DNA of 64,000 nucleotides from Rothia nasimurium. GTDB taxonomy: Bacteria; Actinomycetota; Actinomycetes; Actinomycetales; Micrococcaceae. The DNA lies in the NCBI RefSeq assembly GCF_004569295.1, contig NZ_SPQC01000009.1:1-64000 (forward strand), read 5' to 3'. Position 1 is the first letter of the stretch. Each line of letters starts with the position of its first letter. Of this stretch, positions 30,818-62,500 are shown piece after piece. A program made the position numbers and the translations under genes. Under the pieces are notes generated by a model that worked only from the letters and a program-made list of their open reading frames with translations, ran no database searches and was not told where the DNA came from.

Positions 30818-31987
30818 CTACCGATTTCCCTTTGCTCTATTGTGCATAATGCATAGCATCTCACAGTTAGCCGCATCCGATGAGCCGCCCCTGGACCACG
30901 CAGTCACATGGTCAGCGTCCATCTCACGCTGCGTATAAATGCGTGTGCGACTATTATTGTCTCCTGTAGCGCACAACGGGCAGTTCGAGACACCAGCAGC
31001 TTTCGCTGCTTCAGTTTGCCGCTGATAAACAGTTCGTTTGGTCTTATCATCAAACATACGGATGTTCAAAAACTCAGATCGACTCTCTCCGCCCAGAACA
31101 TACTCATAGATACCACTAGACCTATGAACAGCAGGATCAGCTCTAAGCTTGTTAATGCGCTCATCTACGATACGACTATCATATGGGCGTAAATGGTACT
31201 CTTCATATAGCCTGCCCCACTCCAGGCCGCGCATTTCTTTATCTGGTGTACGACTGAAAACGGTGGAAACCCAATCAATGACAGAGGTGAAATACTGCTC
31301 TAATTCGGTCGCAGTAGCATCATGCCGATGCTCTGCCATGTAAGAAGAAACGGTCGTATCTTTCGCTGACGCTAGCCAGTCAAGCGCTACATGCAAAACT
31401 TCTTGCCGCTTAGGATCTCCCTTGGTGTAGGCGGACCATTTTTGTTGTCGAGAATCAGCTGAGTTTGAGAAAACTGTCTTAGCTGCGGTGACAAATGGCC
31501 CAGAATAAACAGCGTTAAGAAGTTCCTGCTCATTAAGGGGTACTCCAGCAATATTGATGGTCTGGAACCACTGCTTAATCTCTGGTTCACTGCCTGAGCA
31601 GATGTAGATGAGCAGTTCTGTATTTCGGATTAATTCTTGATGCTCTGGCGCGAGGGAAGAAAAAGTCTGCTCACGGCCATCAACCTTGATAGCGAACTTG
31701 CCTGTAATAAAGCGCCCAATTGAAGTGATGCGCTGCTGGCCATCGAGCACCTCGAGTTTGCCCTCGCTTGCATCGTTGAAGTAAATAAGGCCAAGAGGGT
31801 AGCCAGCTAGAATCGATTCGATCACAGCAACGTCCTTCTTGCCGTCGCCATAGATATAGTTACGCTGATATTCAGGCTGGATGGTGAGACGCCCACCTAA
31901 GCCATAGAGGCCTCGGCCCTCAGCTTCGTTATAGACAAAGCCTTGCACGATGTCGTTGATACTTATTTGTTCTAGTGAAGTTCTCAT
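30818..31987 (-). CDS. DUF262 plus HNH nuclease protein (restriction-like partner)
   Basis: 389 residues. The N-terminal DUF262/ParB-like domain has [11 protein letters not shown] (about 36-46) and [14 protein letters not shown] (80-93), the nucleotide-binding signature of GmrSD-type enzymes. The C-terminal HNH domain (about 336-389) has [16 protein letters not shown] and [14 protein letters not shown], with both zinc-type cysteine pairs. The start overlaps the methyltransferase stop (ATGA), so the two are coupled. It is probably the nuclease arm of a restriction or defence pair whose modification arm is the upstream gene. Confidence 0.82.
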
Positions 31988-33378
31988 GAGCGTCCCTTTA
32001 AATGTCGGATAAAAATGCGGTCGTAGGTTTCTTTGCCATCGATGAGCGTCTTCTTATCCATCTCAGGCGGAGCGACGGTACCTCGGTAGGCCCGCAAGAG
32101 GATAGGTGACTTTGCCCAGCGCTGAGAGCCGAGTACTTCAAACTGTTCTGGGTTGTATCTATCAAAAAAAGTAAGGGGTACGCCCATAATTCCCGACCGG
32201 TATTCAATCTGCTCCGGAGCGTACCCGTATTCTTCGGTTAAGAGGGTCATGACTGCTTCTTTCGTATGACCAGCCGTGAGTACAAACGCTCTCTCTCTCT
32301 CTCTCTCTCTCTTAAGATAGAATCGGCTGGTTCCAGTCTTTCCGTTGCTGAGTTTAACGGGTTCGGCAACTTCAAAGTCTGCGCCCACGAGAATAAACTG
32401 ATCCGGATTATATTTATCCAGGAAGGTGATGGGAACGCCCATGGCTTCTACGTAGTCGCTTGGGATTGCGTCGACAAAGGGAACCTCAATGGCATCGTAG
32501 TTGTCGTACTTAAGGTAGCCGTACTCTTTGATTGCCTTGTGTCTGCTGAATTTGAGGTTATCCTCCATCGTCATGAGAGATAGCGGTTCATGGCGTCGTC
32601 CGTGCTCAATGTTAGTAAACCAGCACGAGTTGCCTAGACGGGTGTAATCGTAGTTCTCATCTGCTGGGTAGCCTAGTCGTTCAGCTTTAGCTGCATCAGT
32701 TTCTTTGATGGCTGTACCTTTAGGGACGCCAAAGACCATATCGGTGTTGTTGGCTGTTGCCCCTTTCCATAGGCGGTTGTCTTTGATGAGGGGAAAAATT
32801 TCTTTATAGGTAATGGCGTTGTTTGAGCCTATGACCGAGAACTGCACCTCATCTTCCATAAGCCAGGCGATGAACTCCCGGAAGAGCGAAAAAGGTGGAT
32901 TAGTGATAACAAAATCTGCGCTGTTTCGTAGCTTGGTGACTTCTTCTGACCGGAAATCGCCGTCGCCCTCTAAATAAGTCCACTTGAGGTCATCGATATT
33001 GACAATGCCGTCGCCGGAAATATCATCGGGCTCAAGGACAAACATACGTCCTCGTTCAAATGACTTGCCCTCATCATATTGTGGAGCATCACGCTCAAAC
33101 ATAGTGGGCTGGTAAGCGGACCTAATGCCCTTTGAGCTCGGAGCATACGATGTCGAGATGAGCTTCTTTAACCCGTACTCAGCAAAATGAAGTGCGAAAA
33201 ACTTCGTGAAGTTACTCCACTCCGGGTCGTCGCAGGGTAGCAGAATAATTTTGTTGCGGAATAAATCCGGGTCGTATTCTAGGTACGCATTGATTTCGCG
33301 CTCAATATCTGCCCATTGGGTGTAGAACTCATCGTTCTTAGCGGCTTTAGCACGTGTGAGGTTGCTATTACCTGCCAT
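31984..33378 (-). CDS. EcoRI-family adenine-specific DNA methyltransferase
   Basis: 464 residues. The N-terminal methylase domain has [16 protein letters not shown] (15-30), [12 protein letters not shown] and the catalytic motif IV NPPF (160-163), as in M.EcoRI-type N6-adenine methyltransferases. The C-terminal part holds two similar segments beginning [16 protein letters not shown] (about 313) and [16 protein letters not shown] (about 398), perhaps parts of a target-recognition fold. Between them K-R-E-R-E-R-E-R is encoded by a 12-unit GA tract, so the gene can be frame-switched. AAGGAG at 33388-33393 sets the start. Confidence 0.85.
32289..32312. repeat. Dinucleotide tract (CT)12 / (GA)12 inside the methyltransferase gene
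   Basis: Twelve CT units on the plus strand encode the Arg-Glu run at residues 357-363 of the minus-strand protein. The frame is open at 12 units. One unit fewer leads to a TGA after about 27 out-of-frame codons; one unit more leads to a TGA after about 14. Both remove the second recognition-like segment and would uncouple the overlapping nuclease gene. This is a classical slipped-strand switch. Confidence 0.9.
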
Positions 33379-33678
33379 ATCTTCTTACTCCTTGGCGTGA
33401 AGGGGCGGGTGGGTCACTTGAATTTTACCGTTCTCTTGATGAGCTCCTAGCTGGTGGGTGTTATAAGTCGTGTATTATCTGGGTTTTCTTGTGCTGTGGA
33501 AGACGAATGCCGTGATTTGATTACATATGACATCATATTATTTCATGTGAAATAATATGATGTCATATGATTTTTCGGACTGAAAATTTTCCAAAAACTT
33601 CTGTCCCAGCCCGCCGAAACCACCAGCTAAGTGCATATACCTCTACGAACCCCACAAACGTAGACGAAAGAGCACACC
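33379..33678. other. 300-base divergent intergenic region with palindrome P3
   Basis: Separates the minus-strand methyltransferase from the plus-strand secretion genes. It holds the methyltransferase ribosome site (33388-33393), P3 (33524-33569) and presumably both promoters. No gene was seen. Confidence 0.5.
33524..33569. repeat. Palindrome P3
   Basis: Perfect 22-base arms (33524-33545 and 33548-33569, each ending in TTTCA/TGAAA at the centre) surround TG. It lies upstream of both divergent genes, so it cannot be a terminator for them. Operator, recombination site or extrusion structure remain possible. Confidence 0.9.
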
Positions 33679-33920: not shown

Positions 33921-35048
33921 ATGAAAAACAAAGGACTACTTGCCGGGGCCAGCCTTTTACTTGCTGCTCTTTTGAGCCTTGTGGCATGTATCCCTCTCCT
34001 CGTCGCGGTCTTTTTCGCCGCTTCAATAGATACACCTGAAAATACCTCAGCTAAGTGCAGCCCCGCAGCGACCACCACAAGCGAGACCAGCGAGAACCTC
34101 ATCAACGTCCCGGCTGAATATACAGAAGACGTCAAAAAGGCCGGCGAAGACTCAGGCATTCCAGCAGAGATACTTGCCAAGCAAATTCAGCAAGAATCGA
34201 ACTGGGATCCTAAGGCCGTATCACCGGCAGGCGCTAAAGGCCTAACCCAGTTCATCCCCTCCACCTGGGAGGCAATCGCACCGGGCGAAGACCCCTTTGA
34301 CCCGCACGCTGCAATCGCCGCCCAGGGCCGCTACATGAAGCAGCTCAAAGACCAGATACAGCACCTAGCCAACGGGGACGCCAATCAGATTGTGAAGCTT
34401 ACCCTCGCGGCCTACAACGCAGGACCCGGCGCTGTCTTGAGCTACGGCGGTATCCCACCGTATAAAGAAACTCAGCACTACGTTGACATCATTACATCCG
34501 GGGCACAGGTCAACTTCTCAGCCACCTGCTCACAGATCGATGGAGCAAAAGCCTGGGACGGCGACTTAGGTCCCGGCGAATGGACGAACCCCTGCCCAGG
34601 GTGTTCATTTACATCAGGCTTTGGGCGAAGGGAATTACCTGAAGGTTTTCCTGAATGGATGAAACAACACGTAGGCGTAGACCTAGCAACCCCAGGCCTG
34701 GACCAAGGACAAGCCGGTGTAGAAATCATTACCCCCACCGATATGACCGTAGTCGGCCTGCTTGAAGATGACGGCTGCGTTATCGCCAAGCAAAATGAAG
34801 CACCAGGCTTCCAATTCGGTTTTTGCCACCTGAACACCATCAACGTCACAGTCGGCCAAAACCTCAAACGCGGCGATATTATCGGAATTGAAGGCGGTAC
34901 AGGCGGCGGCGCACAGTTCGCATTTGCAACTCACCTGCACTTTGAAATCTATGACCCTGAATCTCCTGTACCGGCCTACCCCTACAACGGCCACAACCTA
35001 AACCCCGAACCCATCCTCAAAGAGAAAGGCGCATGGGTGAACTCATGA
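33921..35048 (+). CDS. VirB1-like lytic transglycosylase fused to M23 endopeptidase
   Basis: 375 residues. It has an N-terminal membrane segment (about 7-35), an SLT domain (65-190) with catalytic Glu92 in IQQESNWDP and the motifs GLTQFIPSTW and AAYNAGPGAV, then a LytM/M23 domain with zinc ligands His250 and Asp254 (HVGVDL) and His340 in HLHFE. It cuts glycan and peptide bonds of the wall so the secretion channel can assemble. It is coupled to the next gene by an ATGA overlap. Confidence 0.9.
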   Translation: MKNKGLLAGASLLLAALLSLVACIPLLVAVFFAASIDTPENTSAKCSPAATTTSETSENLINVPAEYTEDVKKAGEDSGIPAEILAKQIQQESNWDPKAVSPAGAKGLTQFIPSTWEAIAPGEDPFDPHAAIAAQGRYMKQLKDQIQHLANGDANQIVKLTLAAYNAGPGAVLSYGGIPPYKETQHYVDIITSGAQVNFSATCSQIDGAKAWDGDLGPGEWTNPCPGCSFTSGFGRRELPEGFPEWMKQHVGVDLATPGLDQGQAGVEIITPTDMTVVGLLEDDGCVIAKQNEAPGFQFGFCHLNTINVTVGQNLKRGDIIGIEGGTGGGAQFAFATHLHFEIYDPESPVPAYPYNGHNLNPEPILKEKGAWVNS

Positions 35049-42213: not shown

Positions 42214-43812
42214 ATGGACTTCCTCATCGACTGGACTATCAAGATTCTTGATAAGTTCAATGGCTCCAAAAAAGACTTTGCCCCCGAAGAAGCCCCGGCA
42301 CCAGAAGAAAAATTCAGCGAACTGACCTCCAGGGGGTTCAAGAAATCAGGTGGCGGCTACATGAGCATCATCGAACCTCCCGTAGAATTTTCAGCTTCAT
42401 CCCAACAGGTTGCCGGTCTCTTCCCCTTCTGCGTTGGTTCCTCAGAACCACTCATCGGCACCATCTTGGGCCGCTCCCTGACCAACGGCCAGCCTGTCAC
42501 CGGTGACCCTGTTTCCCTCTACCTTGCCGGTATTATCTCCGCTCCCTTGGCAATCGTCATGGGCCTCAACGGGCGCGGTAAATCAACGCTGGTGCAGCGC
42601 ATGATGCTAGGAATTGCCGATGCCGGGTTCTTGATTATGGCCCTGGGCGATGTGAAGCCCGACTTTAGAAAGACCATCACGGCCCTGGGCGGGCAAGTCA
42701 TTGAACCTGGCCCCGAACTGGACGCCATCAACCCTCTGGACGCCGGGCCCATGTGGCACCGCATCAAAGACCTCGAAGACTTTGACGCCGCCAACGGCAC
42801 CCGCCACGCAAAGACCCTCAAGGCAGAGATTCACACCCGCCGCGTTTCCACCATGCAGTCCCTCTTCCGGCTCTCAGGCGATGAAAAGGCAACCCGAGTT
42901 GCCAACGACTCCCTGCTGCTCTCACTTGCTATCGACCAAGCAGATGCACAGTGCATGGCAGAAAACCCGCCCCGCCAGCCTCTGATCGAAGATGTACGTC
43001 AAGCTGTTCTGGCCGGCAACGAAGCGATGCGAACCGCCCTACTGACTGAAACCACAGAAGAATACAAGGCCGCTTCACGCGATTTGGTGCTGGCTTTGAA
43101 CGTCTTCAACACCGGTGGCGCGTTCGGTGACGTCTTCTCCCGCCAGACCACCACCGAGATTGACGTGACCCGCTCAGTGGACTTTGACATCTCATCGGTA
43201 CGCGAATCTAAAAACAAGAACCTTCTCGCTGCCGTCCAGATTGTCTGCTGGGCCTACGGTCAGGCTGCAATTGGCGCGGCCAAACGTCTAGCTGATGTGG
43301 GCCTGGAACCTCAGCGGAACTACTGCGTGGCAATGGATGAGCTTTGGGCCCTGCTAGAAATTGACCCTGAGATGATTCACCATATCGACGAAATCACCCG
43401 TCTGAACCGTACCCTTGGTATCGCCCAGATTCTCATCACCCACACCCCCAAAGACTTTGTGTTCAACGACCCCGGCCTGACCGAAAAGGCTAAGGGCTTC
43501 CTTGAACGCTCACCCATGAAGCTCTACGGGGCGCTGGCTGAGACCGATATGGAGGCCCTAGATAAGGTCATGCCCATGACACAGCGTGAGAAGAACACCC
43601 TCATCTCCTGGTCTCCTGCCGGTCACATGGATCCTGAAACCATGCAGGTCTCACCTCCCATTGGACGCGGCAAGTTTCTGCTCAAGTACGGTGAGGGCCC
43701 TGGTAAGCCTTTCCAGCTGACCATCACACGGGGCGAGAAAGAAATCTTTGAATCAGATGGGGCATGGGGCCAAGCTATCTCCCGCGCCCGCTCACCTATG
43801 CATGCCGCCTAA
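42214..43812 (+). CDS. VirB4/TraC-like conjugation ATPase
   Basis: 532 residues. Walker A is GLNGRGKST (117-125), followed by GDVKPDFRKTI; Walker B is CVAMDELWALLE (Asp375, Glu376); then the sensor region ILITHTPKD. It powers assembly of, or substrate passage through, the secretion channel. Compared with full-length VirB4 the N-terminal part is short, because that domain is in the upstream gene. Confidence 0.85.
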   Translation: MDFLIDWTIKILDKFNGSKKDFAPEEAPAPEEKFSELTSRGFKKSGGGYMSIIEPPVEFSASSQQVAGLFPFCVGSSEPLIGTILGRSLTNGQPVTGDPVSLYLAGIISAPLAIVMGLNGRGKSTLVQRMMLGIADAGFLIMALGDVKPDFRKTITALGGQVIEPGPELDAINPLDAGPMWHRIKDLEDFDAANGTRHAKTLKAEIHTRRVSTMQSLFRLSGDEKATRVANDSLLLSLAIDQADAQCMAENPPRQPLIEDVRQAVLAGNEAMRTALLTETTEEYKAASRDLVLALNVFNTGGAFGDVFSRQTTTEIDVTRSVDFDISSVRESKNKNLLAAVQIVCWAYGQAAIGAAKRLADVGLEPQRNYCVAMDELWALLEIDPEMIHHIDEITRLNRTLGIAQILITHTPKDFVFNDPGLTEKAKGFLERSPMKLYGALAETDMEALDKVMPMTQREKNTLISWSPAGHMDPETMQVSPPIGRGKFLLKYGEGPGKPFQLTITRGEKEIFESDGAWGQAISRARSPMHAA

Positions 43813-43838
43813 GAAGTAGTAGAAAGGACACACACCCT

Positions 43839-45593
43839 ATGTTCCGCTCACGTTCATGGGTGGGGCTCTACACACTGGTACTAGGCTTTATCGGTATGGC
43901 CGTTGCCATCCAAGTAGGGCAACGGCTCACCGGAGCCAAAACCACAAGCCTCAACCCCCTCATCGGCATTCTCGAACTCATTACCGGGCGCATCAAAGCC
44001 TCACCCCTTAGCTGGGTGCTCGTAGCCCTGGTAGTAATCGGCTGCGTTATTTTCTTCGTGGTCTTTGGGGAAGAACCTAACGAGAAGTCCCCAGAGCGCA
44101 AGAACCAGCTACTGGGTGCACATAAGCTAGAGAAAACCGCCACCGGCAAAAACCTCTCCAAGTACGCTACCCTCACCGGCCTGACCATCGGACGTATCAT
44201 CGGTTCAGGTAAATGCGTTATACAGAACTGGGAGTCGGTTGGTCTGTACTTTATGGGCCCCCGTATGGGTAAGACCAGCGGTATTGTAGTGCGCCACGCA
44301 ATTGAGGCACCTGGGGCCTATGTCTTTACGGCCAATAAGCCTGATGGGGTCGCTGAGATTATTGCCTCCCGTCAGCACATGGGCCAAATCTGGTTATGGG
44401 ATACAGAACGCCTACTACCTGTGCCTGTGGCCGATGGCCAAGAAAAGAAGCCTCTGATGGTCTGGAACTTCCTTGGTTCTATCACCTCTCGCTCTCGCGC
44501 TGAAGCCTACGCCAAGATCCTCAATGACTCATCCAAGCTCTCAGGCGAGAACGATAACGTCTCATCGGATGCTTTCTTTGAGCCTCTAGCCCAAAAAGTT
44601 GTTGTCGCCTCCTTGCTTGCTGCCTCATCACGCGGGTACTCGGTGGTGAAGATGCTGGAAATGACTCAAGAATCCACCCTTGCCCAGCTCTATTCCATCG
44701 TTCAGCAGGACTCCCCTCTGCTAGCTGCTGACATCAAGAAGGTGGCCGAACAGCCCGATAAGACCAAAGAGAACATCCTGGCAGGTGCCTCTCGTATTCT
44801 CTCGGCGCTCTCTAACGATGAGATTATCCCTTGGCTCGAATCCAGTACCGTCCGCAAGCACGAGCTCTTTGACCCTGCCAAGTTCGTCCGTACCCGTGAC
44901 ACCCTCATCATTCTGGTCAAGGACGGCGGCTCTTCTGCTGCCACCTTATCCTCCCTGCTCGCTGAGGCTGTCATGAATGCCGCCTTGGACGCTGCAAGCC
45001 CACGGCTTGACCCGCCCTTGGTCTGCGATTTTGATGAAGCGAACAACACTGTACACATTCGTACCATGCCTAAGCGGTACACCTACTTTGGGTCTCGCGG
45101 CATCATCGTCAATCAGTATTTCCAGACCTACTCAGACGGGGCCAGGCTTTACGGCGAAAAGGGCTTTAGGGCTCTGTTGTCTGCGGCTACTGTCAAGGTC
45201 GTTGGTGGCGGCATTGACGAAGAGCGCGAGTTAGCGGCTATCGCTAAGACTCTGGGCACCTATGAGAAGAAAACCGTTTCGTCTTCAGCCTCACGTGAGG
45301 GCGGGTTCAATACCGGGGCTACCTCAACCTCCATCTCACGCCGCAAGGAAGAGATTATGTCGGTGGCCGAACTCAGTAACCTGCCCCAGTTCCGGGCTGT
45401 CTGCCGTATCTCAGGTGTAGGTCGCGGCCTGGTCGAAACCACCCCGTGGTTCAGAGATGAAGCACTCAAAGAGAAAATTGACCCCGCAGAAGTAGAGCGA
45501 ATCGCTAACAGCTTGGGCTACAGCCTGGGCCTCGCTAAAGAGAGCTCATCGTCCCCGTCCCCTGATAAGAAGGAGCCCTTGCGCCTTGTATAA
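43839..45593 (+). CDS. VirD4/TraG-family coupling protein
   Basis: 584 residues from ATG 43839 (AGAAAGGA upstream). Two transmembrane helices (about 8-28 and 58-76) are followed by a cytosolic ATPase with Walker A GPRMGKTS (140-147) and Walker B VCDFDEANN (Asp399, Glu400). RGIIVNQYFQT is the TraG-like QxxxQ-type region. It brings the relaxase-DNA complex to the channel. The 3' end overlaps the next gene by 8 bases. Confidence 0.88.
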   Translation: MFRSRSWVGLYTLVLGFIGMAVAIQVGQRLTGAKTTSLNPLIGILELITGRIKASPLSWVLVALVVIGCVIFFVVFGEEPNEKSPERKNQLLGAHKLEKTATGKNLSKYATLTGLTIGRIIGSGKCVIQNWESVGLYFMGPRMGKTSGIVVRHAIEAPGAYVFTANKPDGVAEIIASRQHMGQIWLWDTERLLPVPVADGQEKKPLMVWNFLGSITSRSRAEAYAKILNDSSKLSGENDNVSSDAFFEPLAQKVVVASLLAASSRGYSVVKMLEMTQESTLAQLYSIVQQDSPLLAADIKKVAEQPDKTKENILAGASRILSALSNDEIIPWLESSTVRKHELFDPAKFVRTRDTLIILVKDGGSSAATLSSLLAEAVMNAALDAASPRLDPPLVCDFDEANNTVHIRTMPKRYTYFGSRGIIVNQYFQTYSDGARLYGEKGFRALLSAATVKVVGGGIDEERELAAIAKTLGTYEKKTVSSSASREGGFNTGATSTSISRRKEEIMSVAELSNLPQFRAVCRISGVGRGLVETTPWFRDEALKEKIDPAEVERIANSLGYSLGLAKESSSSPSPDKKEPLRLV

Positions 45594-46906: not shown

Positions 46907-49900
46907 CTAACGAACAGTCGTCCTGTCCTCACTCTGCTGCCGATTCAAATAGTCAGTAGCGCTTTCACGCTTGGCCTGAGCATCAAGAGCCACAGCAATC
47001 TGACGCTTACGATGCTGACGGGCCTGTACCGTCTCCTGAATCTTAGCCAGCTTCGTCCGCGCCGCCATACGACCAGCATGAGCCTTATTAATCTTCTGCT
47101 TCAACCCAACAGATAATTGTTCATTCCTCTCTAGTCGTTCCTTAGCCTGAACCAGGCGTATCTGGGTCTGCTCGAAGTGCTCCCTAGTTTCACGCACAGT
47201 TTCCTGAGCCGGAACCCACTTCTCCTCTACCTCTTCAAGGGTGGCGAACCCACCATAGGCAGAAGCGAACTGAGCTGTGGCTTCTTCAAGCTGACGTGCG
47301 GCCTTGGTGCGGGCGAAGAAGCCTGCGCTCTCTACCGCTGCCTTAGCCTCCTTGACCGGGCGGTAGGCCTTCTTCGCACCAAAGAACACATCAGATTTAG
47401 CCTTGGCCAACTCCACACGGTATTGCTGCTGCAAGGGGGTTAGCTCTTCTACCAGCTGTTTGAGCTCACGGGTCTTGCGGGCCACCTCATCGCTTTGGGT
47501 AGATAGATTCGCAAGTTGCTCATCAAAGGAGCTGACCTGCTCCTGGAGGTAAGCCACCTTCTCGTCACGATTCTGCACATCAAGGACGTACTCAACCTCT
47601 GATTGGTCCTCGCGGGTCTCTTGCAGATGCTCAGCCCGCTGTGCAATCCTTGCGGACTCTTCAGCAGAGAGCAGAGTCGATGACAGGCGGGAGCTCTTGT
47701 GCATGGCAACCATCTGGGCTTGCAGATACTGGCCACGTTCCGATTCTTGGTACTTCTTCGGAATGGCCACAACCTCACCGGCAGGCACCTTGTACTGGTT
47801 TCGGTAGGCCTCAATCTCACCAGCGATCCTGTACCAGCGTTTGGCCGCACGGGGATAAGCAGGCACCTCACCCAGGGACTTGACCCATTCAGGGCGTTCA
47901 TCGGCCAGCTGCTTACCGCGCAGTTCGATAAGCTGCCCGATTTGCTTACGGTGAGACGCTAGCAGGGCCTTGTTCTCAGGCTTGACCATCGGGTTAGTTG
48001 CCCAGTACGGGTCAACGGTGTGGTTCGATACGCCCGCACGTACCGCGTCCTTGGCCGGCATCTTGTACCCGGCATCTTCTACGGTCTTGAGTGCGGTTCT
48101 ACGCAGACGCTGCTCACTCTTAAGCGCCTTGACGATGGTGAAGAGGTGGTCGCGGCGCTTCTCACCACGGACGAACTGCTCCACGGCCTTTTGCTCCGGG
48201 CCCATCTGTGCACGGCGTAGCCACTCGTTATCCATTGCATAGGCATTTTCACGCAAATCGTCGATGTAGGGGTCTTTGGCGTCTTCACGAGAGCGCAACA
48301 AGGCAAAGGTCTTCATACGCATTTCCCGTAGTTCTTCGGTCTTCACCAGAGCGTAGGGACGGTCAGCCCAGTTTGCATCTTCAAGGTTGGCGCTATCAGG
48401 CTTCTTCGGCAGGTTGGCCTCAGCGCGGGCAATCATCTTAGCCAATGTGGCATCAGAGTAGGCACCCAGGGGACGGGTCATGCGCTGCTTAAGTAATGCT
48501 TCGTTGTGCTCGCGTACCTGCTTCACGCGCCACTGCATGACGGCCGCTGCATCGTGGGCGTCCTCAAACCCGCGAGTGGGGAAGGCCTGGCGTACAGCAT
48601 CACGGGGGTCGAACCCGGCACGGTAGACTTCATCCAGCTCGTAGCACAGGGCCCCGTAAGCCTCTGCGTTAATCATCTTCTCTGCTAGGGTGTCCCCAAC
48701 TTCCTGGCGCAACATGGTGGCGTAGGACTGCTTCATGGAGTGCTCAGCCAGGTTGTTGTAGATGCTGACGCGGGTTGCCAAGTCCCGGGTCTCTGCGCGC
48801 AGACGCTCTACCTCTTCATGCACGGAGAGGTTCTTATCGTAGTTGTTAGTGATAGCCTCCAGCACGGCATCGCGGTTATTCTCAGCGTCGGTAGCCACGT
48901 AGATGCGGTTGGAGAAACGGCCACGGGTGATACCAACGTAGGCCCCGGCGCGGTCGGTGCTCTTATCAACGTAGGCGTGAACGGTGTCTACGGTCGCACC
49001 CTGGGAGCGGGCAATAGTTGAGGCATACCCCAGCTCAACGAACTTGGCAACATAGTGAGCTGATAGAACAGTCTTACCACCGTGCTTGAGGTTCTTGACC
49101 ACCATAGACCCATCTTTACGGGTAGAGAGAACCTGCCAGAGGTCGCCGTTCTTCACAAAGTCTTTGCCACCACGTACCCGGTTACGGCGGTCATTCTCAC
49201 GCGATACGACAATCTCGCCCTTGTAGGCTGTGGACGAATCATGCAGGGAGATACCCCACTTATTTTCCACTACCTTGCCCTGGGCAATGGCCTGAATCTG
49301 GGCGCGCATGTTCAGCTCTTGGACGGCCTGATTGTTAGCTGCCAGCATCAGTGACTTTTTGCCGGCTGCGGTATCTGCGCTCCATGCCTCAAAGACCTTG
49401 GAGAGCATGGCCTCAGATTCACCGGCCATCACACGGTTATTGTCGATGTACCAGGCAAAGGGTTTGTCGGCACCTGTTGCGGCAGGTTCGCGTAAGAGCA
49501 TAGAGGCGTTGGCCTCTTCAATGTTGGTGCTGCCGTCCTCGTTACGGAAACGGAAAACGTCTTCTAGGTAGACCGCTCCGACTTCTCGTTCAATCAGTCG
49601 TAGGGCACCACCGGCACCTACAGCTGAGAGCTGACGAGTATCGCCCATACCTCGGATAACTGCACCGCTGTTGTAGGAATGGGTCAGTAGCTCGTTGAGT
49701 TTGGGGGTTGAGACCATGCCGATTTCGTCAACCAACAGGACGTCGCCGTGGGTCAAGGTGTGTTTGGTCTTGTCGGTTTCGTGCAGGAAACGGTCAAGAG
49801 TGGTGGCCTCGATTCCCAGTTCTTGGCTCATGACAGCTGCCGCTGCTGCGGTGGGGGCTAGGCCGATAACCTTGCGTCCTTGTGCCTTGACAGTCTTGAC

Positions 49901-52033
49901 GGTAAGCACGGTTGAGGTGGTCTTACCGGCACCGGCAGGGCCAATACCAACGACTAGACGCTTGGGGCTGGTGGCAAAAGCACGGGCCATGTTTTCCTGT
50001 GCTTCTGATACCTGGCTGGCTTTCCGGTGGGCTTTGAGCAGCTCTTCAAAGGTGGCCTTTTGGGCCGGGGCGGTGGCGTTATTGCGTGCTGCTGAGAGTA
50101 GGTTCTGCTCGCCGTTGATGACGCGGTGGGTTGTATAGAGCTGGCTACCTGCACGGGTGTAGACGCTGGTGCCGTCCTTACGGAACTTCTCTTCGGGCAC
50201 GTCCATTGTGTGCTCGGCCTGCATTGAAAGAGAGATATTTTTGACGGACTTGATGGCGTTGTTGAAGAGGTCGTCGTCAACAAAAGAGCCGTTGGTGAGC
50301 TCTCGGAAGTAGCGGTGTGCCTCAGCTTCAATATGGCGGTCACCCCACATCGAACGGGTGTTTTCAAGACGGCCAATAATCTTTTCGGCGTGCTCTAGGG
50401 GTGAGGTAGTGAGGGCTTCGCTCTTACCGGCAACAACCTTTTCAGCTTGCGTAGTAGAAGAATTACGCAGATGTAGTTCTAGCTCATCGCCGGTGGGTAG
50501 GTAAACATCTTTGAGAGATGCAGCTTTCTCGCGCCATAGGTCATTGAGGTCTTTGAGTGACTTAGCTTCGAGTTTCTGGGGGCGAGTTGAGAGAGTAACC
50601 TGCTGGTAGAGCTGCTTGACCTGACGCTCGTTCGGCTCATAGCCGTGGTCTTTGACAAACTGGGCATGAACCTTTTTGTACTCTTTATTGATACTGGCGC
50701 GGCGTGATGAAAAGGCCTGGATTGCCTCATCGTCGATACCGGCCAGCTCGTAAATGAACTTACCTTTACGCGGTACTTTAACGAACTCAAGGCCCAGGTT
50801 CTGGTGAATGTACTGGGCAATCTTGGTGTTATAAAGTTCGGAGGCGCTGACCCCGTAGCCGTAAATATTGCGTCCGTCGATGGCTGACCATCTACCATCT
50901 GCACCCTTGACGCGGTTGACGATGACCAGGTGGTCGTGGATATTGGGGTCGCCTTCTCGGGAGTCATAGTGACGGAATTTAGTACCGATAATGCCACCGT
51001 CAACGTCAATTTGCTCAACACCGCCTTGCCCGCGACGGGTGTAAAGAGCGTTTTCTTCCAGGTAGGTAATGACATCTGCAATGGCTGCTTCGTGGGCTTT
51101 TTCGATGCCCTTGCGGAGGTTTTCGTTACCCAGTCCCCATGCAATTGAGACTGATTTGGTGGGGGAGAATACGAGGTCGTAACCGGCGATTGACTGCTGT
51201 GCAGGCTTTTCTAGGCGCTGCATGTAGCGTACTAGCTCTTCGTTTTCGGGGTTGTAGCCGTTCTCTTCGCGGAACATTTTTGCGGCTACTTCAAGGCGGT
51301 AGGCACGCATTTCAGCCTTGGAAGGTTCGGCCTTTCCAAGGCTGTTGTGCTTGTCGATTTTCTTCTGAACTGCCTTGAGGAAGTCCTTATTAGCGGTGGG
51401 GTAGGAGTGGTCTCTGTTGCCAAAGTCGTGCTCTTTGATCCACTTTAGCTTGGCTTTTTCTTTGGCTTCTGCTGCCTTGGCTTCTGCTGCCCTGCTCTGG
51501 GCAGGGGTCATGGTGTAGGTTGCGATGATGCTCTCTTTGGCTTCTGCAAGAGAGGGTACTTTACCGCTGTACGGTTCAACGGTATTGAGCTTCATCATCT
51601 TTAGTTTGCGCTTATTCACGGCTTCTCGAGATAAGCCAATCATGCGGCCAATACGCTGTTCGGGGGTTCCCTTCCTGACCTCATGAATGATGCGCCAGTT
51701 CTCTTCTGCGTACTTAACGCGCTCTTCTTCCATGACTCGGATACGCGCAAACTCACCAGCTACACCAGCAGCCTCAAGAGCTTCGGTGTACATCTCGGGG
51801 GTCAAGGGCTTGGCTTTACCGCTAAAGAGCATTTCCATCTGAGCTTCAGTGACGTTGCCAGAAACCCCGAGCTCATGGATAGATGAACCAACCCACTGAC
51901 CAGGGGGCATACCCTCAACGGTGTAGTAATCACCGATTTCACGGTCATTTGAGCGCAGTGCATCACCGGTGGCCACCTCATGGGTGTAGTAGGTGTGGCC
52001 GTCCCCGTGGGACAGCTTATGCACGGTCATCAT
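46907..52033 (-). CDS. MobF-family relaxase-helicase (TraA/TraI-like)
   Basis: 1708 residues. The N-terminus has the tyrosine pair YYTHEVATG (Tyr15/16). An inserted region contains an HTH-like segment (RIGRMIGLSREAVNKRK, about 127-143). The relaxase metal site is FRHYDSREGDPNIHDHLVIVN (His354, His366, His368). The RecD-like helicase has Walker A GPAGAGKTT (about 698-706) and Walker B VLLVDEIGMV. A long helical tail ends the protein. It nicks oriT and pilots and unwinds the strand. It is divergent from a small DNA-binding-like gene across the likely oriT. Confidence 0.93.
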   Translation of the reverse strand: MMTVHKLSHGDGHTYYTHEVATGDALRSNDREIGDYYTVEGMPPGQWVGSSIHELGVSGNVTEAQMEMLFSGKAKPLTPEMYTEALEAAGVAGEFARIRVMEEERVKYAEENWRIIHEVRKGTPEQRIGRMIGLSREAVNKRKLKMMKLNTVEPYSGKVPSLAEAKESIIATYTMTPAQSRAAEAKAAEAKEKAKLKWIKEHDFGNRDHSYPTANKDFLKAVQKKIDKHNSLGKAEPSKAEMRAYRLEVAAKMFREENGYNPENEELVRYMQRLEKPAQQSIAGYDLVFSPTKSVSIAWGLGNENLRKGIEKAHEAAIADVITYLEENALYTRRGQGGVEQIDVDGGIIGTKFRHYDSREGDPNIHDHLVIVNRVKGADGRWSAIDGRNIYGYGVSASELYNTKIAQYIHQNLGLEFVKVPRKGKFIYELAGIDDEAIQAFSSRRASINKEYKKVHAQFVKDHGYEPNERQVKQLYQQVTLSTRPQKLEAKSLKDLNDLWREKAASLKDVYLPTGDELELHLRNSSTTQAEKVVAGKSEALTTSPLEHAEKIIGRLENTRSMWGDRHIEAEAHRYFRELTNGSFVDDDLFNNAIKSVKNISLSMQAEHTMDVPEEKFRKDGTSVYTRAGSQLYTTHRVINGEQNLLSAARNNATAPAQKATFEELLKAHRKASQVSEAQENMARAFATSPKRLVVGIGPAGAGKTTSTVLTVKTVKAQGRKVIGLAPTAAAAAVMSQELGIEATTLDRFLHETDKTKHTLTHGDVLLVDEIGMVSTPKLNELLTHSYNSGAVIRGMGDTRQLSAVGAGGALRLIEREVGAVYLEDVFRFRNEDGSTNIEEANASMLLREPAATGADKPFAWYIDNNRVMAGESEAMLSKVFEAWSADTAAGKKSLMLAANNQAVQELNMRAQIQAIAQGKVVENKWGISLHDSSTAYKGEIVVSRENDRRNRVRGGKDFVKNGDLWQVLSTRKDGSMVVKNLKHGGKTVLSAHYVAKFVELGYASTIARSQGATVDTVHAYVDKSTDRAGAYVGITRGRFSNRIYVATDAENNRDAVLEAITNNYDKNLSVHEEVERLRAETRDLATRVSIYNNLAEHSMKQSYATMLRQEVGDTLAEKMINAEAYGALCYELDEVYRAGFDPRDAVRQAFPTRGFEDAHDAAAVMQWRVKQVREHNEALLKQRMTRPLGAYSDATLAKMIARAEANLPKKPDSANLEDANWADRPYALVKTEELREMRMKTFALLRSREDAKDPYIDDLRENAYAMDNEWLRRAQMGPEQKAVEQFVRGEKRRDHLFTIVKALKSEQRLRRTALKTVEDAGYKMPAKDAVRAGVSNHTVDPYWATNPMVKPENKALLASHRKQIGQLIELRGKQLADERPEWVKSLGEVPAYPRAAKRWYRIAGEIEAYRNQYKVPAGEVVAIPKKYQESERGQYLQAQMVAMHKSSRLSSTLLSAEESARIAQRAEHLQETREDQSEVEYVLDVQNRDEKVAYLQEQVSSFDEQLANLSTQSDEVARKTRELKQLVEELTPLQQQYRVELAKAKSDVFFGAKKAYRPVKEAKAAVESAGFFARTKAARQLEEATAQFASAYGGFATLEEVEEKWVPAQETVRETREHFEQTQIRLVQAKERLERNEQLSVGLKQKINKAHAGRMAARTKLAKIQETVQARQHRKRQIAVALDAQAKRESATDYLNRQQSEDRTTVR

Positions 52034-56574: not shown

Positions 56575-59500
56575 CTACCGCACCATACCCTGCCCCCTCT
56601 GCACATCAGCACCACGAGAACTAGCCAGCTCACGCGCTACCCCGGCCCCTCGCACCTTCTGCGCCCGCAACACAGGGTCAACCTGCACCCTCTCCTGCTT
56701 CACAGCCTCAGCCTTACCCTGAACCAGCTTCAACGCACCATCAGCCTTCTCGATCCTAAGCCGCGCATCAGCCGAATCCTGCTCAATACCAGCCTTCCTA
56801 GCCCTCACATCGGCCAGTTGCTTATCCCACAAAGACAGCTCTTCATCAGTCTCCTTAGCCCACTTCATCCCCTCATACGCTTCGGTAGCTCCGTGGTACT
56901 TACCCTGAACCTCAGCCTTCACCTGCTCCAGGGCCTCACGCTTGGCAGAACGAGAGAAAAAGCCAGCCTCTTCAAGCTCCTGCTCGGCAGACCGTAGCCG
57001 CTTGAAATCACTCTGCGCCTGAGCCTCAATAACCCGTTCACGCTCCTGCATCTTCCCCAGAATCTCAGCCTCGGTATTGCCCACCTTAAAGAGCTCCCGC
57101 TCGGCCTTACCCAGCTCATCCCAAGCCTCAGTCAATTCAGCCTTGACCCCATTCGTCTCATCTACCAACTGGCGGTGCTCTTGCTCAAGCTGCCGGGCAC
57201 GCTCCTGAGCCTGAGTCTGAGCCTCAACGCCCTGGCCCTCAGCGGCCCTCTCATCATCCACCAGCACACCGTTCACCTTATCCTGCTCATCGCCCGCAGC
57301 TTCGGCTACCTGTAGCTCTTCCATTGGTTCCTTGCCTTTCTCTTCCAGATTCTCCACCGAATCTGCAATCAAACTAATCTCTTCCTGCTGGCTCTCCAGT
57401 AGCATCTGCTCCCGAACCTCGTCCTTAGCGGTCTTGAACTTCTCCACCAGCTTCCTCAGACGTAGCTCCTCAGCTTCGGCTACACGCACCTGCTCCAACT
57501 GGGTAAACCCAGCCTCCGCCTTGGCCTTATAGCCAGGCATCAACTCACGAGCCTGAGCCAGCTCCTTCTCCATGCCCTCAGCCTTCACCGCCACAGATGA
57601 GACCGCGTTCTCCAGGCGCATCACCAGACCCCTGTTGCCCTGACGCATCTCCGCATACCCGGCCTCAACCTTGACCCACGGCATACCCTCAACATGAAGC
57701 GTCACAGGGGTCTGACTGATATGACCAGGAGTAGCCGCTTGAAGAACACCCACAAAGTTCAGGCCACCGACTGAGATAACAGGCCCAAGCTGCTGGGCTC
57801 GCACCCACGAGGGCGAACCGATACCATCAGCCCACTGCTTCAGGGCATCAGCAACATCAGCGCGCGAGTCGAACCGCTGACCATTCATCACAGCTGCGAA
57901 TTTATCCTCAGAGGTCTCCACCACCTGGCCCGCTGCCTGCCGCATGGCCGGAATCTGTGCCTCTAGCACCTTGACACGGGCAGAGAGAGCATCGTACTGG
58001 AACTGGGCAAGACGACGTCCGTTCTCAAAACCAGTCATCACATTCCGTAGCTTCTGAACCTTAGCCACAGCCTCAGAATGCTTCATGATAAAGGGGTTGC
58101 CTGTGGCAATCGCCTGAGTCTGGGCCATTGATACCTCAGCCTTACCCAGATCCTCCATCGTGCGAATAGACATATCCCCGCGCATGACCTGGGAGATAAA
58201 CCGCTGCTTACGCAAGAGCGTTGACCACATCACCGCATCAAAGGTCTCAGCGGTCACCACCTGAGTAATCCGCACTTGCTGGTTCTGATTACCAGGACGC
58301 AAAATACGGCCGTCGCGCTGCTCCAAGTCAGCAGGACGCCACGGGGCATCCATGTGCACCAGGTGCACCAGGCGGTTCTGAATGTTAGTACCGGTGCCCA
58401 TACGAGAGGTAGAGCCAATCAGCACTGCCACTTCACCATCCCGGCACTGCTGGAAGAGCTTGGCCTTTTTTGCCTCAGAGTCAGCATCTTGGATGAACCG
58501 AATCTTGTCCTCGGGAATACCGGCAATAACGCACTGCTTCTTCAGCTCGTTATACATATCGAAACCACGGTCTTTACCAGGAACACCGTAGTCACAGAAG
58601 ACCACCTGCAACGCACCGGGGTTAGGATGGGCCTCATCCGTGCCAGGAATCAGGTAGCTACGGTTCTTATTCTTCTCATAGACTTCAGCTAGCACCTGGG
58701 CGGTCGCCTCTGCCTTGGTTGGCACTTCCCCCGAGGGGATAGCAGAGGGGTCAATCAGCCGGTAATCAGCTGCTGCCTTACGCCCATCAGAGGTAATGAC
58801 CAGCGCGTTATCCTCACCCTTGTCAGCGCGTCCAGATAGCCCCTCATACCGTTCGGCCAAATAGGTGATGTAGGCGGCCTGCTCCGGTGAACGCTTCAAG
58901 GAAAGAACATGCGGTGCGGCCTCACCTTTTTCGTTAGGCTCAAGCTCAGGACGCTTCAGGTAGGACAAATCATCTGCTAGCTTCACATCGGCATAGGTGT
59001 GCATGGTGCGAATGAGCTCAGGGATATTAACGAACTTCGGGAACCTGGTATTCATCTTGTAGGAATCACCACCGGCCACGGTTAGCTCTAGCTCTGTGAC
59101 CGTCTTACCGTAGGTCGCGGCCCACGAATCAAAGTTCTCCACGCCCTGCTCACGTAGGAGCTCAGGGGCAAGGTAGCGGTTCATCACATAGAGCTCTGCC
59201 ATACTGTTAGCCACCGGCGTTCCGGTCGCTGCGGTAATGACCCGGTTGCCGTTAGTATCACGCAGATACTCCACCACTGAATGCAGGTTCGTTGCCTTCT
59301 TCGAGCCCCCAATAGAGGCACCACGGATAGTAGAGGGTGTTTTCAGGTTCTTGAACTCGTGCATCTCATCAACACACAGGTAATCAATGCCGGTCTCTTC
59401 AAAAGAGATACCCGCAGGGGAGGGGTTGGCCAGCAGTTTCTTAATGTCCTGTTCCAGGGCCTCGATGCGTTCCTGTAGCTCCTTGGTTGTTTTGGTGGGC

Positions 59501-62500
59501 TTACCTGCTTGGGCCGCGCGCTCATTATTCTTGTAGAGAGATTCGGTGAGCAAATCGACTTCTTTTTGTAGATAGGCCGCTTTGCCCTCGTTCGACAGCT
59601 CCAGCTTGTTAAAGGCAACGTGGGTCATAATGACGGCATCCCAGTTATTGGTGGCCACGCGTGCGATGAACTGCTTATGCTTCTCCCCGTTACCAATATC
59701 TGATGATGAGGCAGTGAGTAGGCGCGCCTGGGGGTACAGTTCTAGCCACTCGCGAGAGAACTGCTCCAGCATGTGGTTAGGCACAAGAATGGCCGGCTTT
59801 TTCACCAGGCCTAAGCGCTTTAGCTCCATCGTACCGATGACCATTTCAGCGGTCTTACCGGCACCAACTTCGTGGAAGAGACCAACGCTCGGTTCATTAA
59901 TCATGCGCGCAATCGCAGTGCGCTGGTGAGCATGAGGGGTAAAGGTCTTGACCAGACCCGGTAAGGTCAGGGCCTTGCCAGCCTCGGTATAGTTCCGTAG
60001 CGCGTAGTTATTGTGCCTGTCGTTGTAGGCTCTCGCCAGCATCTGGTGACGCTCAGGCTCTTCCCATACCCATTGTGCGAACCTGTCAGCGATACGTTCG
60101 GCCTGGTCATTTGCGTGTGCGGTGGCCTGCGGGTTCAGCTGCTTGTCGGTGATAATCTGAATCGGCTTTTTCTCGATAGCTGCCTGGAAGAGCTGGGCCG
60201 GGGTGCGCTCGGGTGTCCCGTAGTTATTGGGGTCAGTTCGTGAGCTGTTGGTTAGTTCCCACATGCCGCCATGTACTCGGCGCAGGTTAGCTCGCCTATC
60301 ACCTAGCTCTTCGCGCAGGAATTGCTCGTGGACTTCATCGGGAATCCAGACAGTGCCGGGCTGGACGGTAATATCCGCTGAAGCAATATCCTCGGGGATA
60401 GCCTTTTCTAGGGCCTGAACATGCTTGGTGAAGTGGGGGTTGAGTTCAGCGGCGGCCTGGGCTTCTTTCAGCTTGGCTCGCACATTTCCTGATAGGTACT
60501 CTTCGGCGGTCTGATATTGTGGTGCCTCAGCAGGGGAGTTGGGTAGGACATAGATTCGGTCTCCTAGCTCAGAGACAACAGCCTCGGGGGCCTCGTTCAT
60601 CAGCTCACCCATGTACTGAACATCAACCTGGCCCTTAACATCTAGCGATACTGCCAGGGCATCCAGAGCGTTATCCACGTGGGTGACAGGCTTGCGCGGC
60701 TCTAGGATGCGGCGGTTGAGCAGGTCAGCAGGGGTCGCCGTGTTGGTGGCCTGGGAGTAGTTCTCCAGACCAAGAACGAGGGCACCGGCAGGGTCTTTGA
60801 GGAAGATGCTCATCACCGGGCGGCGGCGCACGCTGGTCTCGCCACTGGCGGTGTAGGTGATTTTGCCACCGTTCAGGGGCCCGTACTTTTCGGTGTGTGC
60901 CAGGTAGGTCTCGCGTAGCTGGGTACGCGCGGCATCCATCGTAGTCTCAGAGACAGCATCGGTAGCTTCTGCCGATAGAAGAGCCTTCGCCTGGTCACGC
61001 AAGGACAACAGGCCCTTTAGCTCCTGCACCTGGGTCTTGGGCACCGGCAGGGGCACTTGCTCTTTGTTCTGGTAGATAGTGAACGAATCGTCGCCCTGAA
61101 GACTAATATGCTGGTCAAGAAGTTGCTCACCGGGCAACAGCAAGGGCATGGCTTCTGAGACCTTGGCCGGGGTAGTAGAGTAGCCGCGTCCTGCTGAAAG
61201 AGCCACCTTAGCGTCGGCTTCGATAGCTTCAGCTAGGCGCTGGGGCAGGTTCTCGCGCTCCTGAGATGTAGCTGTAATAGCCTCGCTCATCTGACCAAAG
61301 CGATTGGTTTTCAGCACCTTTTCACCCAGCAAGTTCTGGGGATTATCCTCAAAGTATGCGTTACGGTGGTAGCTCTGCCCGTCCTCGGCGGTGTATTCCT
61401 TACTGGTGAGCCAGGCATCAGAGAGCTGGGCCTCACCCTCCATGCGTTTACGGAAAATCAGCAGGTCGGTCATCACTGAGGTGCCCGCATTATCAAAAGC
61501 ACGCTCAGGAAGACGGTAAGCTCCCACTAGGTCAGCTTGGGCATACATAGCCTCACGAGCTGCAGACCCCGTAGCATCAAGGGTTCCTGTTGAGGTAATG
61601 AGCGTAACCATACCCCCTGGTTTGGTCAGATTCAGGGACTTGATGATGAAGTGGTTGTGCATAGAGTGCCCCGCTGCGTTATGCCGCGGATCATGCAAAA
61701 CCGTCTGAGAAAAGGGAACATTCCCGATGGCGGCATCAAAATAGCCGTTGGGGATAAAGGACTCAGCAAAGGACTCATTGCGGATGGAGGCCTCGGGGTA
61801 GAGGTAGGCTGAGATGGCCGCGCCGGTCGGGTCAATCTCAATGCCGGTGACGCGGGTGTTAGCTGGGGCCTTGCTAATAAAGTTGCCGATACCGCTACCA
61901 GGTTCTAAGACTTGACCACTGGTGAAGCCATATTCTTTCAGGCCCTGCCATACCGCATTGGTATAGGTCGGGTCAGTGTAATGGGCATAGTTGACCCCTC
62001 GTGCAGCCTGCCGGTAGCCCTCTTCACCCAGTAGTTCTTTGAGCTCGAAGCGCTCGGGTTCGGTCTCTCGGTTGGCCTCGTTGAAAATTTCGGATAGGCC
62101 ACCAGCACCCCAACCGGTGTACTGGGCTAGTAGCTGCTTCTCTTCATCGGTTGCAGCTCTATCGGCCCCTTGCAGAGTCTGAAGAGTCTCTAAGGCCGCG
62201 ACGTTGCGCCGGTAGCGCTCAGCAACGGTGAGAGCCCCACTTGGGCTGCTCACCGTAGCCTGCTCTACTGATTGTTCTTCAAGGATTCGAGCATCTGCTG
62301 AAGCTCCTGCTGTCTCTCCAAGTACGGGGCGGCCTTCTCCTGGTAGGCCAGGTTCGCTGAGCGGATTTCGATGTCCTGCGGTTCCTCCGAGCTCAGGTAC
62401 TGGCTGTTGATGCTGGTCTTCAAATCGCGCAGGTACTGGTCGTTCCACAGCATCTCGCTCTGAATCTCCCACTCGCTCATCGGCTGAGGCACCTCCTGCT

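Follow-up and report, generated by a model that had tools for sequence, protein, structure and literature searches.

The window, a stretch of 64,000 nucleotides at the start of contig NZ_SPQC01000009.1 of Rothia nasimurium, carries a pair of overlapping genes on its minus strand (Table 1). The first gene encodes an adenine-specific DNA methyltransferase of the EcoRI family, as the initial annotation had proposed from the letters alone, and its product matches PF13651 (EcoRI_methylase) over the full length with an E value of 3.7e-125 and 418 bits against a cut-off of 26.4. The second gene starts at the ATGA where the first one stops, has the sequence AAAGGGA before its ATG, and encodes the GmrSD_N (DUF262) and HNH domains that had been suspected there. 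This predicted nuclease gene gives the methyltransferase the adjacent endonuclease gene of a Type II restriction-modification system. The nuclease also has the N-terminal domain of GmrSD, a Type IV system (PF03235), but a GmrD-type C-terminal domain was not found, the C-terminus giving only the PF01844 HNH match at E <= 0.001. Among the relatives we scanned, a DUF262 gene is often the next one after an EcoRI-family methyltransferase.

Downstream lie genes for a TrwC relaxase, a TraG/D coupling protein and an SLT+M23 peptidase, which agrees with the earlier description of the region as a conjugative element. Two other features of the window deserve mention. An inverted repeat with 22-bp arms and a 2-nt loop (CATATGACATCATATTATTTCA) was seen by eye at 33524-33569, about 150 nt upstream of the methyltransferase start, and is possibly a regulator site. 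At 56575-62865 on the minus strand there is a gene for a 2096-aa protein with a helicase C-terminal domain and weak SNF2-related and Eco57I methylase matches, a second large methylase-helicase-like gene in the window.

Table 1. Features of the window around the methyltransferase gene, with their positions in the window.
Feature	Position	Strand	Evidence or remark
DUF262/GmrSD_N + HNH putative nuclease, 389 aa	30818..31987	-	PF03235 2.4e-21, PF01844 7e-05, PADLOC REase_II 8e-91
EcoRI-family adenine-specific DNA methyltransferase, 464 aa, two C-terminal modules in assembled frame	31984..33378	-	PF13651, PADLOC MTase_II 1.6e-93
ATGA overlap, methyltransferase stop (module-2 frame) and nuclease start	31984..31987	-	
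Module 2, second complete family C-terminus	31984..32187	-	PF13651 positions 277-344, 39 bits
Assembled frame, linker to module 2	32188..32288	-	similar in L089 and L009
Third frame, 27-codon tail without family resemblance	32204..32287	-	BLASTP best E 0.38
Alternative frame, 13-residue family-type ending of module 1	32247..32288	-	BLASTP, L039
(AG)12 tract, sets the reading frame of everything downstream	32289..32312	-	
Module 1 before the tract	32313..32442	-	MGVP strand and the next helix and strand confidently modelled in the core
Motif NPPF, residues 160-163	32890..32901	-	alignment of 81 sequences
SLT+M23 peptidase	33921-35048		
TraG/D coupling protein	43764-45593		
TrwC relaxase	46907-52033	-	

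We compared the methyltransferase with its relatives in two protein alignments, A1 and A2, of 81 and 61 proteins that were hand-picked from 120 candidates plus the window protein. In the alignment of 81 sequences N160, P162 and F163 are invariant and P161 is nearly so; we take this NPPF to be the catalytic motif. Most of the relatives scanned have one C-terminal module, which consists of MGVPITF..NPDQFEI, a hypervariable loop and a terminal Y.RI.IR. The window protein has this module twice, from residues 313 and 398, with the tract between the copies, and PF13651 accordingly matches it in two pieces (profile positions 1-303 and then 277-344). Thus the assembled frame has two modules in place of the usual single one ending in Y.RI.IR, and an alternative frame would have one. 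R454 of the window protein aligns with an invariant arginine of the family. The second recognition-like segment of the initial annotation therefore exists, from residue 398, and is a second family C-terminus. Both shifted frames lose this segment, as the same annotation said; what needs revision is the gain-of-one frame, which has a family-type ending and not a nonsense tail.

Variability in the 61-sequence alignment is greatest between QFEI and Y.RI.IR. The two middle blocks of this stretch have a mean entropy of 2.65-2.69 bits with 36-49% gaps, and the preceding blocks have 0.54-2.21 bits; a second variable stretch lies around residues 221-240. Four pairs of enzymes have cores that are 84-90% identical yet have very different C-termini (L073/L085, L070/L081, L044/L046 and L069/L091), and other close pairs have their C-termini in common. 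Target-recognition regions vary in just this manner, and the C-terminal module probably acts as the target-recognition part. Our search found no solved structure for an EcoRI-family methyltransferase, so we draw this from the variability.

The tract itself is a perfect (CT)12 on the plus strand, or (AG)12/(GA)12 on the coding strand, and lies within the open reading frame, where it codes for the run of arginine and glutamate at residues 357-363. Its 24-mer has a single match in the 2.69 Mb genome when both strands are searched, and a first-order Markov estimate gives an expected 2.6e-9 such tracts per 64 kb. The position, length and coding context of the tract are as first described, and the tracing of the shifted frames also holds: with one unit gained the gene stops after 13 residues, and with one unit lost it stops after 27. 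In frame 0 the tract is followed by a linker and then module 2, which ends at the ATGA of the nuclease gene. One unit more or two units fewer give the 13-residue tail, which is a family-type ending for module 1, and one unit fewer gives the 27-residue tail (Table 1), so that in the window two of the three frames have family-like endings.

L039, a relative that lacks a repeat, has a C-terminus (RLYERILIRKKQ) to which the 13-residue tail can be matched, with a BLASTP E value of about 4.7e-6 to 4.9e-6 in a small database. When module 1 and this tail are taken together, they align from end to end with the ordinary C-termini of L138 (E 3e-16) and L005 (E 2e-16), and the residues coded by the repeat occupy the linker just before the terminal segment. 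The plus-one frame thus resembles a normal single-module enzyme and not a wreck. Because this frame carries an ordinary family C-terminus, the switch looks like a change of C-terminal module, and probably of recognition module.

From the layout of the gene, the recurrence of this layout with other repeat units and the fact that alternative endings are conserved, we think it probable that the tract works as a frame selector, in which slippage chooses among alternative C-termini and probably among DNA specificities. The methyltransferase core (residues 1 to about 337) would be fixed and followed, in the C-terminal part, by the slippage-prone repeat, and the number of units modulo 3 would decide which of the downstream endings the core receives. 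Twelve units would take the core through the linker to a second complete module and a stop at the nuclease gene's ATGA; 13 or 10 units would give it the normal ending for module 1; and 11 units would give it a tail unlike the family, probably making an inactive enzyme. This presumes that the tract slips in the host, that target recognition resides in the module and a switch would thereby change the methylated sequence, and that translation of the nuclease would be highest in the frame ending at ATGA. A loss of translational coupling for the nuclease gene in the shifted frames, which the initial annotation had also put forward, is plausible.

Phase-variable methyltransferases are mostly treated as ON/OFF switches, the common kind of phase variation, and the gene could be one of these, with the 464-aa frame alone active and the other two frames dead or unstable. 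One shifted frame of the window does lack a family ending, and in another genome of the same genus (G007) a GA tract splits another EcoRI-family methyltransferase near the N-terminus. This tract, (AG)15 at 2160-2189 of L007, is in the N-terminal third, is out of frame in the assembly, has a DUF262-like gene downstream and is of the ON/OFF type. Three points speak against such a switch at the window locus. The plus-one frame supplies a C-terminus of the family type, most of the scanned loci have single-module proteins, and five relatives described below have family endings in all three frames. We consider a plain ON/OFF switch unlikely here. The initial annotation had called the gene phase-variable, and the kind of tract, the relatives with other lengths and frames (L089 and L009) and the (AG)15 of G007 all speak for this; what finds no support is a plain ON/OFF switch, given that one shifted frame carries a family C-terminus.

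Two relatives have the two-module form. L089, from IMG/VR, is 82% identical to the window before the tract and has (GA)6. Its assembled frame ends in RERE*, module 2 is in a second frame that stops at an ATGA before the DUF262 gene, and the third frame ends in VTPYFRILIRPRKGSKE*. Between the window and L089 the cores are 82% identical and module 2 is 73% identical, and by eye the module-1 sequences differ. L009, from an Actinomycetaceae MAG, carries (GA)4; its assembled frame includes module 2, and another of its frames ends in VTPYFRILIRVKSDWKES*. The comparison of homologues, which had been named beforehand as a check, therefore gave 12 units in the window, 6 in L089 and 4 in L009, and the assembled frame includes module 2 in the window and L009 but misses it in L089. 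In other words, tract length varies among related genes in a way that changes the frame, as is expected of a phase-variable simple sequence repeat. Another EcoRI-family methyltransferase from the genus of the window, L146 in G032, has one in-frame TAG.

We also considered a frozen or decaying duplication, in which the repeat is a passive expansion of the linker and the second module is a remnant. L009 has a stop at codon 88 and so may be a dead copy, a copy on one plasmid, next to a transposase gene, seems to be cut short, the family also has mononucleotide runs without alternative endings, and most of module 2 has low confidence in the AlphaFold model. But pN/pS for module 2 is 0.20 between the window and L089 and 0.16 between L089 and L009, and dN/dS is 0.09 between the window and L009, all with synonymous sites near saturation or saturated. 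These values indicate that module 2 is under purifying selection, even though the L089 assembly has it out of frame. In addition, other repeat units recur in the same part of the gene, and the chance expectation for the tract is very low. This makes a decaying duplication very improbable in our judgement.

Besides the window we found ten loci that combine alternative endings with a repeat in the C-terminal part of the gene: L089, L009, L043, L062, L145, L094, L153, L105, L166 and L186. Overall their repeats are (GA)4-15, (CA)21, (GAACA)7 and A9-11, and at the nine loci measured, the window and L089 included, the tract lies 498-603 nt past the NPPF codons. In the window, L089, L009 and L105 (A9) the tract comes after most of module 1. 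It comes before the first module in L043, (AG)15, and in L166, A11, which is on a viral IMG/VR contig. In L062, (AG)8, L094, (CA)21, L153, (GAACA)7, and L186, A9, it is inside a module, for which the frames give different ends. The family ending motif closes three frames in L062, L094, L153, L105 and L166 and two frames in L043 and L186, and also two in the window, L089 and L009. L145, with (AG)9 at +832 after an extra module, has two frames that by eye end in the family motif. At about 2340-2740 of L145 the methyltransferase core ends before the first module, which sits in another frame, and we did not find a repeat of the sought length between them. A further tract, (AG)16 at 4537-4568 of L212 (Campylobacter coli plasmid pOR12CC42), is intergenic by the annotation and comes after an EcoRI-family methyltransferase gene and a single hypothetical gene.

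L166 is the clearest case for a selector with three positions. After its A11 there are three complete modules in three frames, and each of them matches the C-terminus of a different repeat-free relative (L107 at 2e-30, L120 at 2e-30 and L076 at 2e-34). Alternative tails can also be alike between loci with different repeat units, by eye those of L062 frame 2 and L153 frame 0, and of L094 frame 1 and L153 frame 2. The layout is not confined to the actinobacteria, for it is found in a Gastranaerophilales MAG (L062); it is present in IMG/VR contigs as well.

For the counts we used 109 distinct methyltransferase genes that passed an NPPF filter, 14 of which carry a simple repeat between +380 and +1000, counted from NPPF. 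The selector loci are nine of these 14 genes plus L009, which has a shorter tract; L145 does not belong to the set, having been picked up by a pattern search. Ten of 109 is not a frequency, as the loci came from similarity searches that used the window and selector-bearing queries. In a first test 17 of 20 off-frame tails of selector loci (25 of 30 tails in all) matched, against 3 of 176 off-frame tails of the comparison genes (p 9.7e-19), where the selector loci had partly been picked after their frames were seen, five mononucleotide-run genes were among the controls and L145 was absent. By the ending motif, the 88 comparison genes, a set that includes those mononucleotide-run genes, have it in frame in 85 cases and off frame in 1 of 176. 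An earlier and looser count gave six of six selector loci and 2 of 115 others, the two being L030, which is itself frameshifted, and L091, which is doubtful.

We therefore rely on a recount with a fixed rule, which takes any gene with a simple repeat at +380 to +1000 and scores a match as E < 0.01 to the C-termini of repeat-free relatives. Off-frame tails matched in 16 of 28 cases for the 14 repeat genes and in 3 of 166 for the 83 repeat-free genes (Fisher p 2.4e-13; here and above, p values treat related genes as independent). This leaves L009 out of both groups, and tails shorter than 8 residues, 69 of the 166 control tails, were scored as no match without being queried. By gene the counts are 9 of 14 with a repeat against 3 of 83 without, and all 83 in-frame tails of the control genes match. 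Off-frame matches rise to 16 of 22 when the repeat is inside the open reading frame. Repeats with units longer than one base gave matches in 11 of 12 off-frames (six of six genes), and mononucleotide runs in 5 of 16 (three of eight genes). A mononucleotide run alone is thus no sign of a selector, while each repeat with a longer unit that we found here is one. The five repeat genes without an alternative ending all have mononucleotide runs (L058, L130, L163, L190 and L200), and in L163 and L200 the run is inside the open reading frame. We had also looked at the length of the open frames as evidence and dropped it, since the off-frames of comparison genes can be very long.

Six GA tracts of at least 6 units occur in 1.03 Mb of sequence, one place being counted twice, and all are in these methyltransferase genes. 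The family was found in 11 of 396 genomes drawn from the phylum. Besides the window genome there are ten of these; G509 failed the NPPF filter and was left out, and none of the other nine has such a tract, so the arrangement appears to be uncommon.

We searched for sibling copies with length variation within a species and found none among 48 loci, 40 listed of 98 plasmid records, and 13 phage records. Several candidates were set aside. Two A. kunkeei plasmids have genes with the same C-terminus and no tract; on a third the gene is in pieces and so are its neighbours, which suggests sequence errors. Three plasmid hits had unusual or absent annotation, and for these the repeat scan found no tract in the gene. 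They are an L. plantarum piece that follows an IS5-family transposase, a short Microbacterium gene that follows an IS256-family transposase, and a Raoultella piece near the end of a circular record, where the gene probably runs across the record start. A split EcoRI-type gene of a Helicobacter phage has no tract at the break, and faecal phage MT838873 has an ordinary single-module gene.

Several conserved frames behind one repeat would be explained equally well by recoding, in which the ribosome or RNA polymerase slips at the repeat and each cell makes several C-terminal forms from unchanged DNA. Tracts of A9-A11, which occur in L105, L166 and L186, are of a kind that causes transcriptional slippage. 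On the other side, (GA)12-15, (CA)21 and (GAACA)7 are typical of replication slippage and unlike the usual slippery sites, and the number of units varies among related genes. We hold recoding to be distinctly improbable. With regard to the family as a whole, we lean slightly towards the view that EcoRI-family methyltransferases have repeatedly evolved a three-position selector. Each would have a tract with a different family C-terminus in each frame and with the bypassed modules kept open, and slippage would give one gene three specificities, the partner nuclease following where there is one.

We examined the 464-aa form with an AlphaFold model built from 81 sequences (mean pLDDT 82.8, pTM 0.77). 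Confidence is high between residues 21 (approximately) and 333, with ten-residue means of 83-98, and this part includes the MGVP strand of module 1 and the strand after NPDQF. It falls below a pLDDT of 50 at residues 338-351 and at 396-440, where most of module 2 lies. For the linker helix (373-383) it is intermediate, and for the final segment of module 2 at 441-460 (strand 455-459) it averages 86-95. The model can be read with MGVP..QFEI and Y.RI.IR as a pair of fixed anchors, the frame picking the loop and the terminal strand that close the fold. Since residues 396-440 have low confidence and the last segment is confident, the long form may instead carry a module 2 that is displaced or non-functional. 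The alignment behind the model puts the terminal strands of the relatives on module 2 and so favours both the fixed-anchor result and the displaced-module outcome.

The nuclease has no stretch as gap-rich as the C-terminus of the methyltransferase (133 sequences; blocks of at most 2.24 bits and 9% gaps). Its identity between loci correlates with that of the methyltransferase core (rho 0.39) and not with that of the C-terminus (rho 0.07, partial -0.05), over 242 non-independent pairs from 72 loci, only 24 of which have the same C-terminus in the binned table. These statistics argue against a nuclease that would recognise the target sequence independently of the methyltransferase, as expected in a Type II system. 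We infer that the nuclease owes its specificity to the methyltransferase or to methylation, and not to a recognition domain of its own. If it depends on them in this way, switching would be survivable.

If the frame selector is real, the cells of a single line could, with no need to recombine DNA, alter the methylation specificity that a mobile element encodes and perhaps restriction too. Gene callers would then misread selector genes as frameshifted. With these genes one could also test directly which part of an EcoRI-family enzyme holds its specificity.

The idea of such a switch is already known from several systems. In the H. pylori enzymes JHP1272 (Hpy99XIV) and HP1353-HP1354 (HpyAXVI) a late homopolymer tract adds a C-terminal domain that resembles part of the enzyme's own recognition domain, and this was shown to change the motif from GGWTAA to GGWCNA and from CRTTRA to CRTCNA (PMC3936762). 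In the Type I system NgoAV of N. gonorrhoeae, the length of a polyG in hsdS joins or separates two recognition parts and so changes specificity (PMC9577141). C-terminal phase variation, where a late tract switches the C-terminus among three frames, is described for H. canadensis (PMC2823697) and N. gonorrhoeae (PMC5320596), and one of the N. gonorrhoeae cases fuses with the next gene (PMC5320596). In the open-access literature we found no report of such a choice of C-terminus in EcoRI-family enzymes with DUF262-HNH partners, of dinucleotide or pentanucleotide tracts in that role, or of the three-frame form in the EcoRI family.

The differences from these systems are as follows. The NgoAV switch sits in the separate specificity subunit of a Type I system, unlike that of the window gene (PMC9577141). 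Most tails in the H. canadensis table differ by a few residues, whereas the tails at the selector loci match real C-termini of the same family (PMC2823697). Shuffling hsdS loci, such as the pneumococcal tvr and spnIII, are like the proposed selector in that methylation specificity is changed by exchanging recognition parts, but they are reported to act by DNA rearrangement, and the selector would act by choice of frame. Annotated plasmid pairs of an EcoRI-family methyltransferase and a DUF262 gene (for example NC_019326.1) have the same two genes as the window in the same order, and there too the genes overlap; unlike the window, NC_019326.1 has no simple repeat of the sought length, and most of the loci scanned have one module. 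JHP1272 and HP1353-HP1354 resemble the window gene in that a late tract adds a C-terminal domain similar to a part of the enzyme itself, and the extra module of the window protein is likewise homologous to the enzyme's own C-terminal module. These two are single-chain Type IIG enzymes with homopolymers (PMC3936762), while at the window locus the EcoRI-family methyltransferase and the DUF262-HNH protein have a gene each, the tract is of dinucleotides, and there are relatives whose three frames all carry alternative endings.
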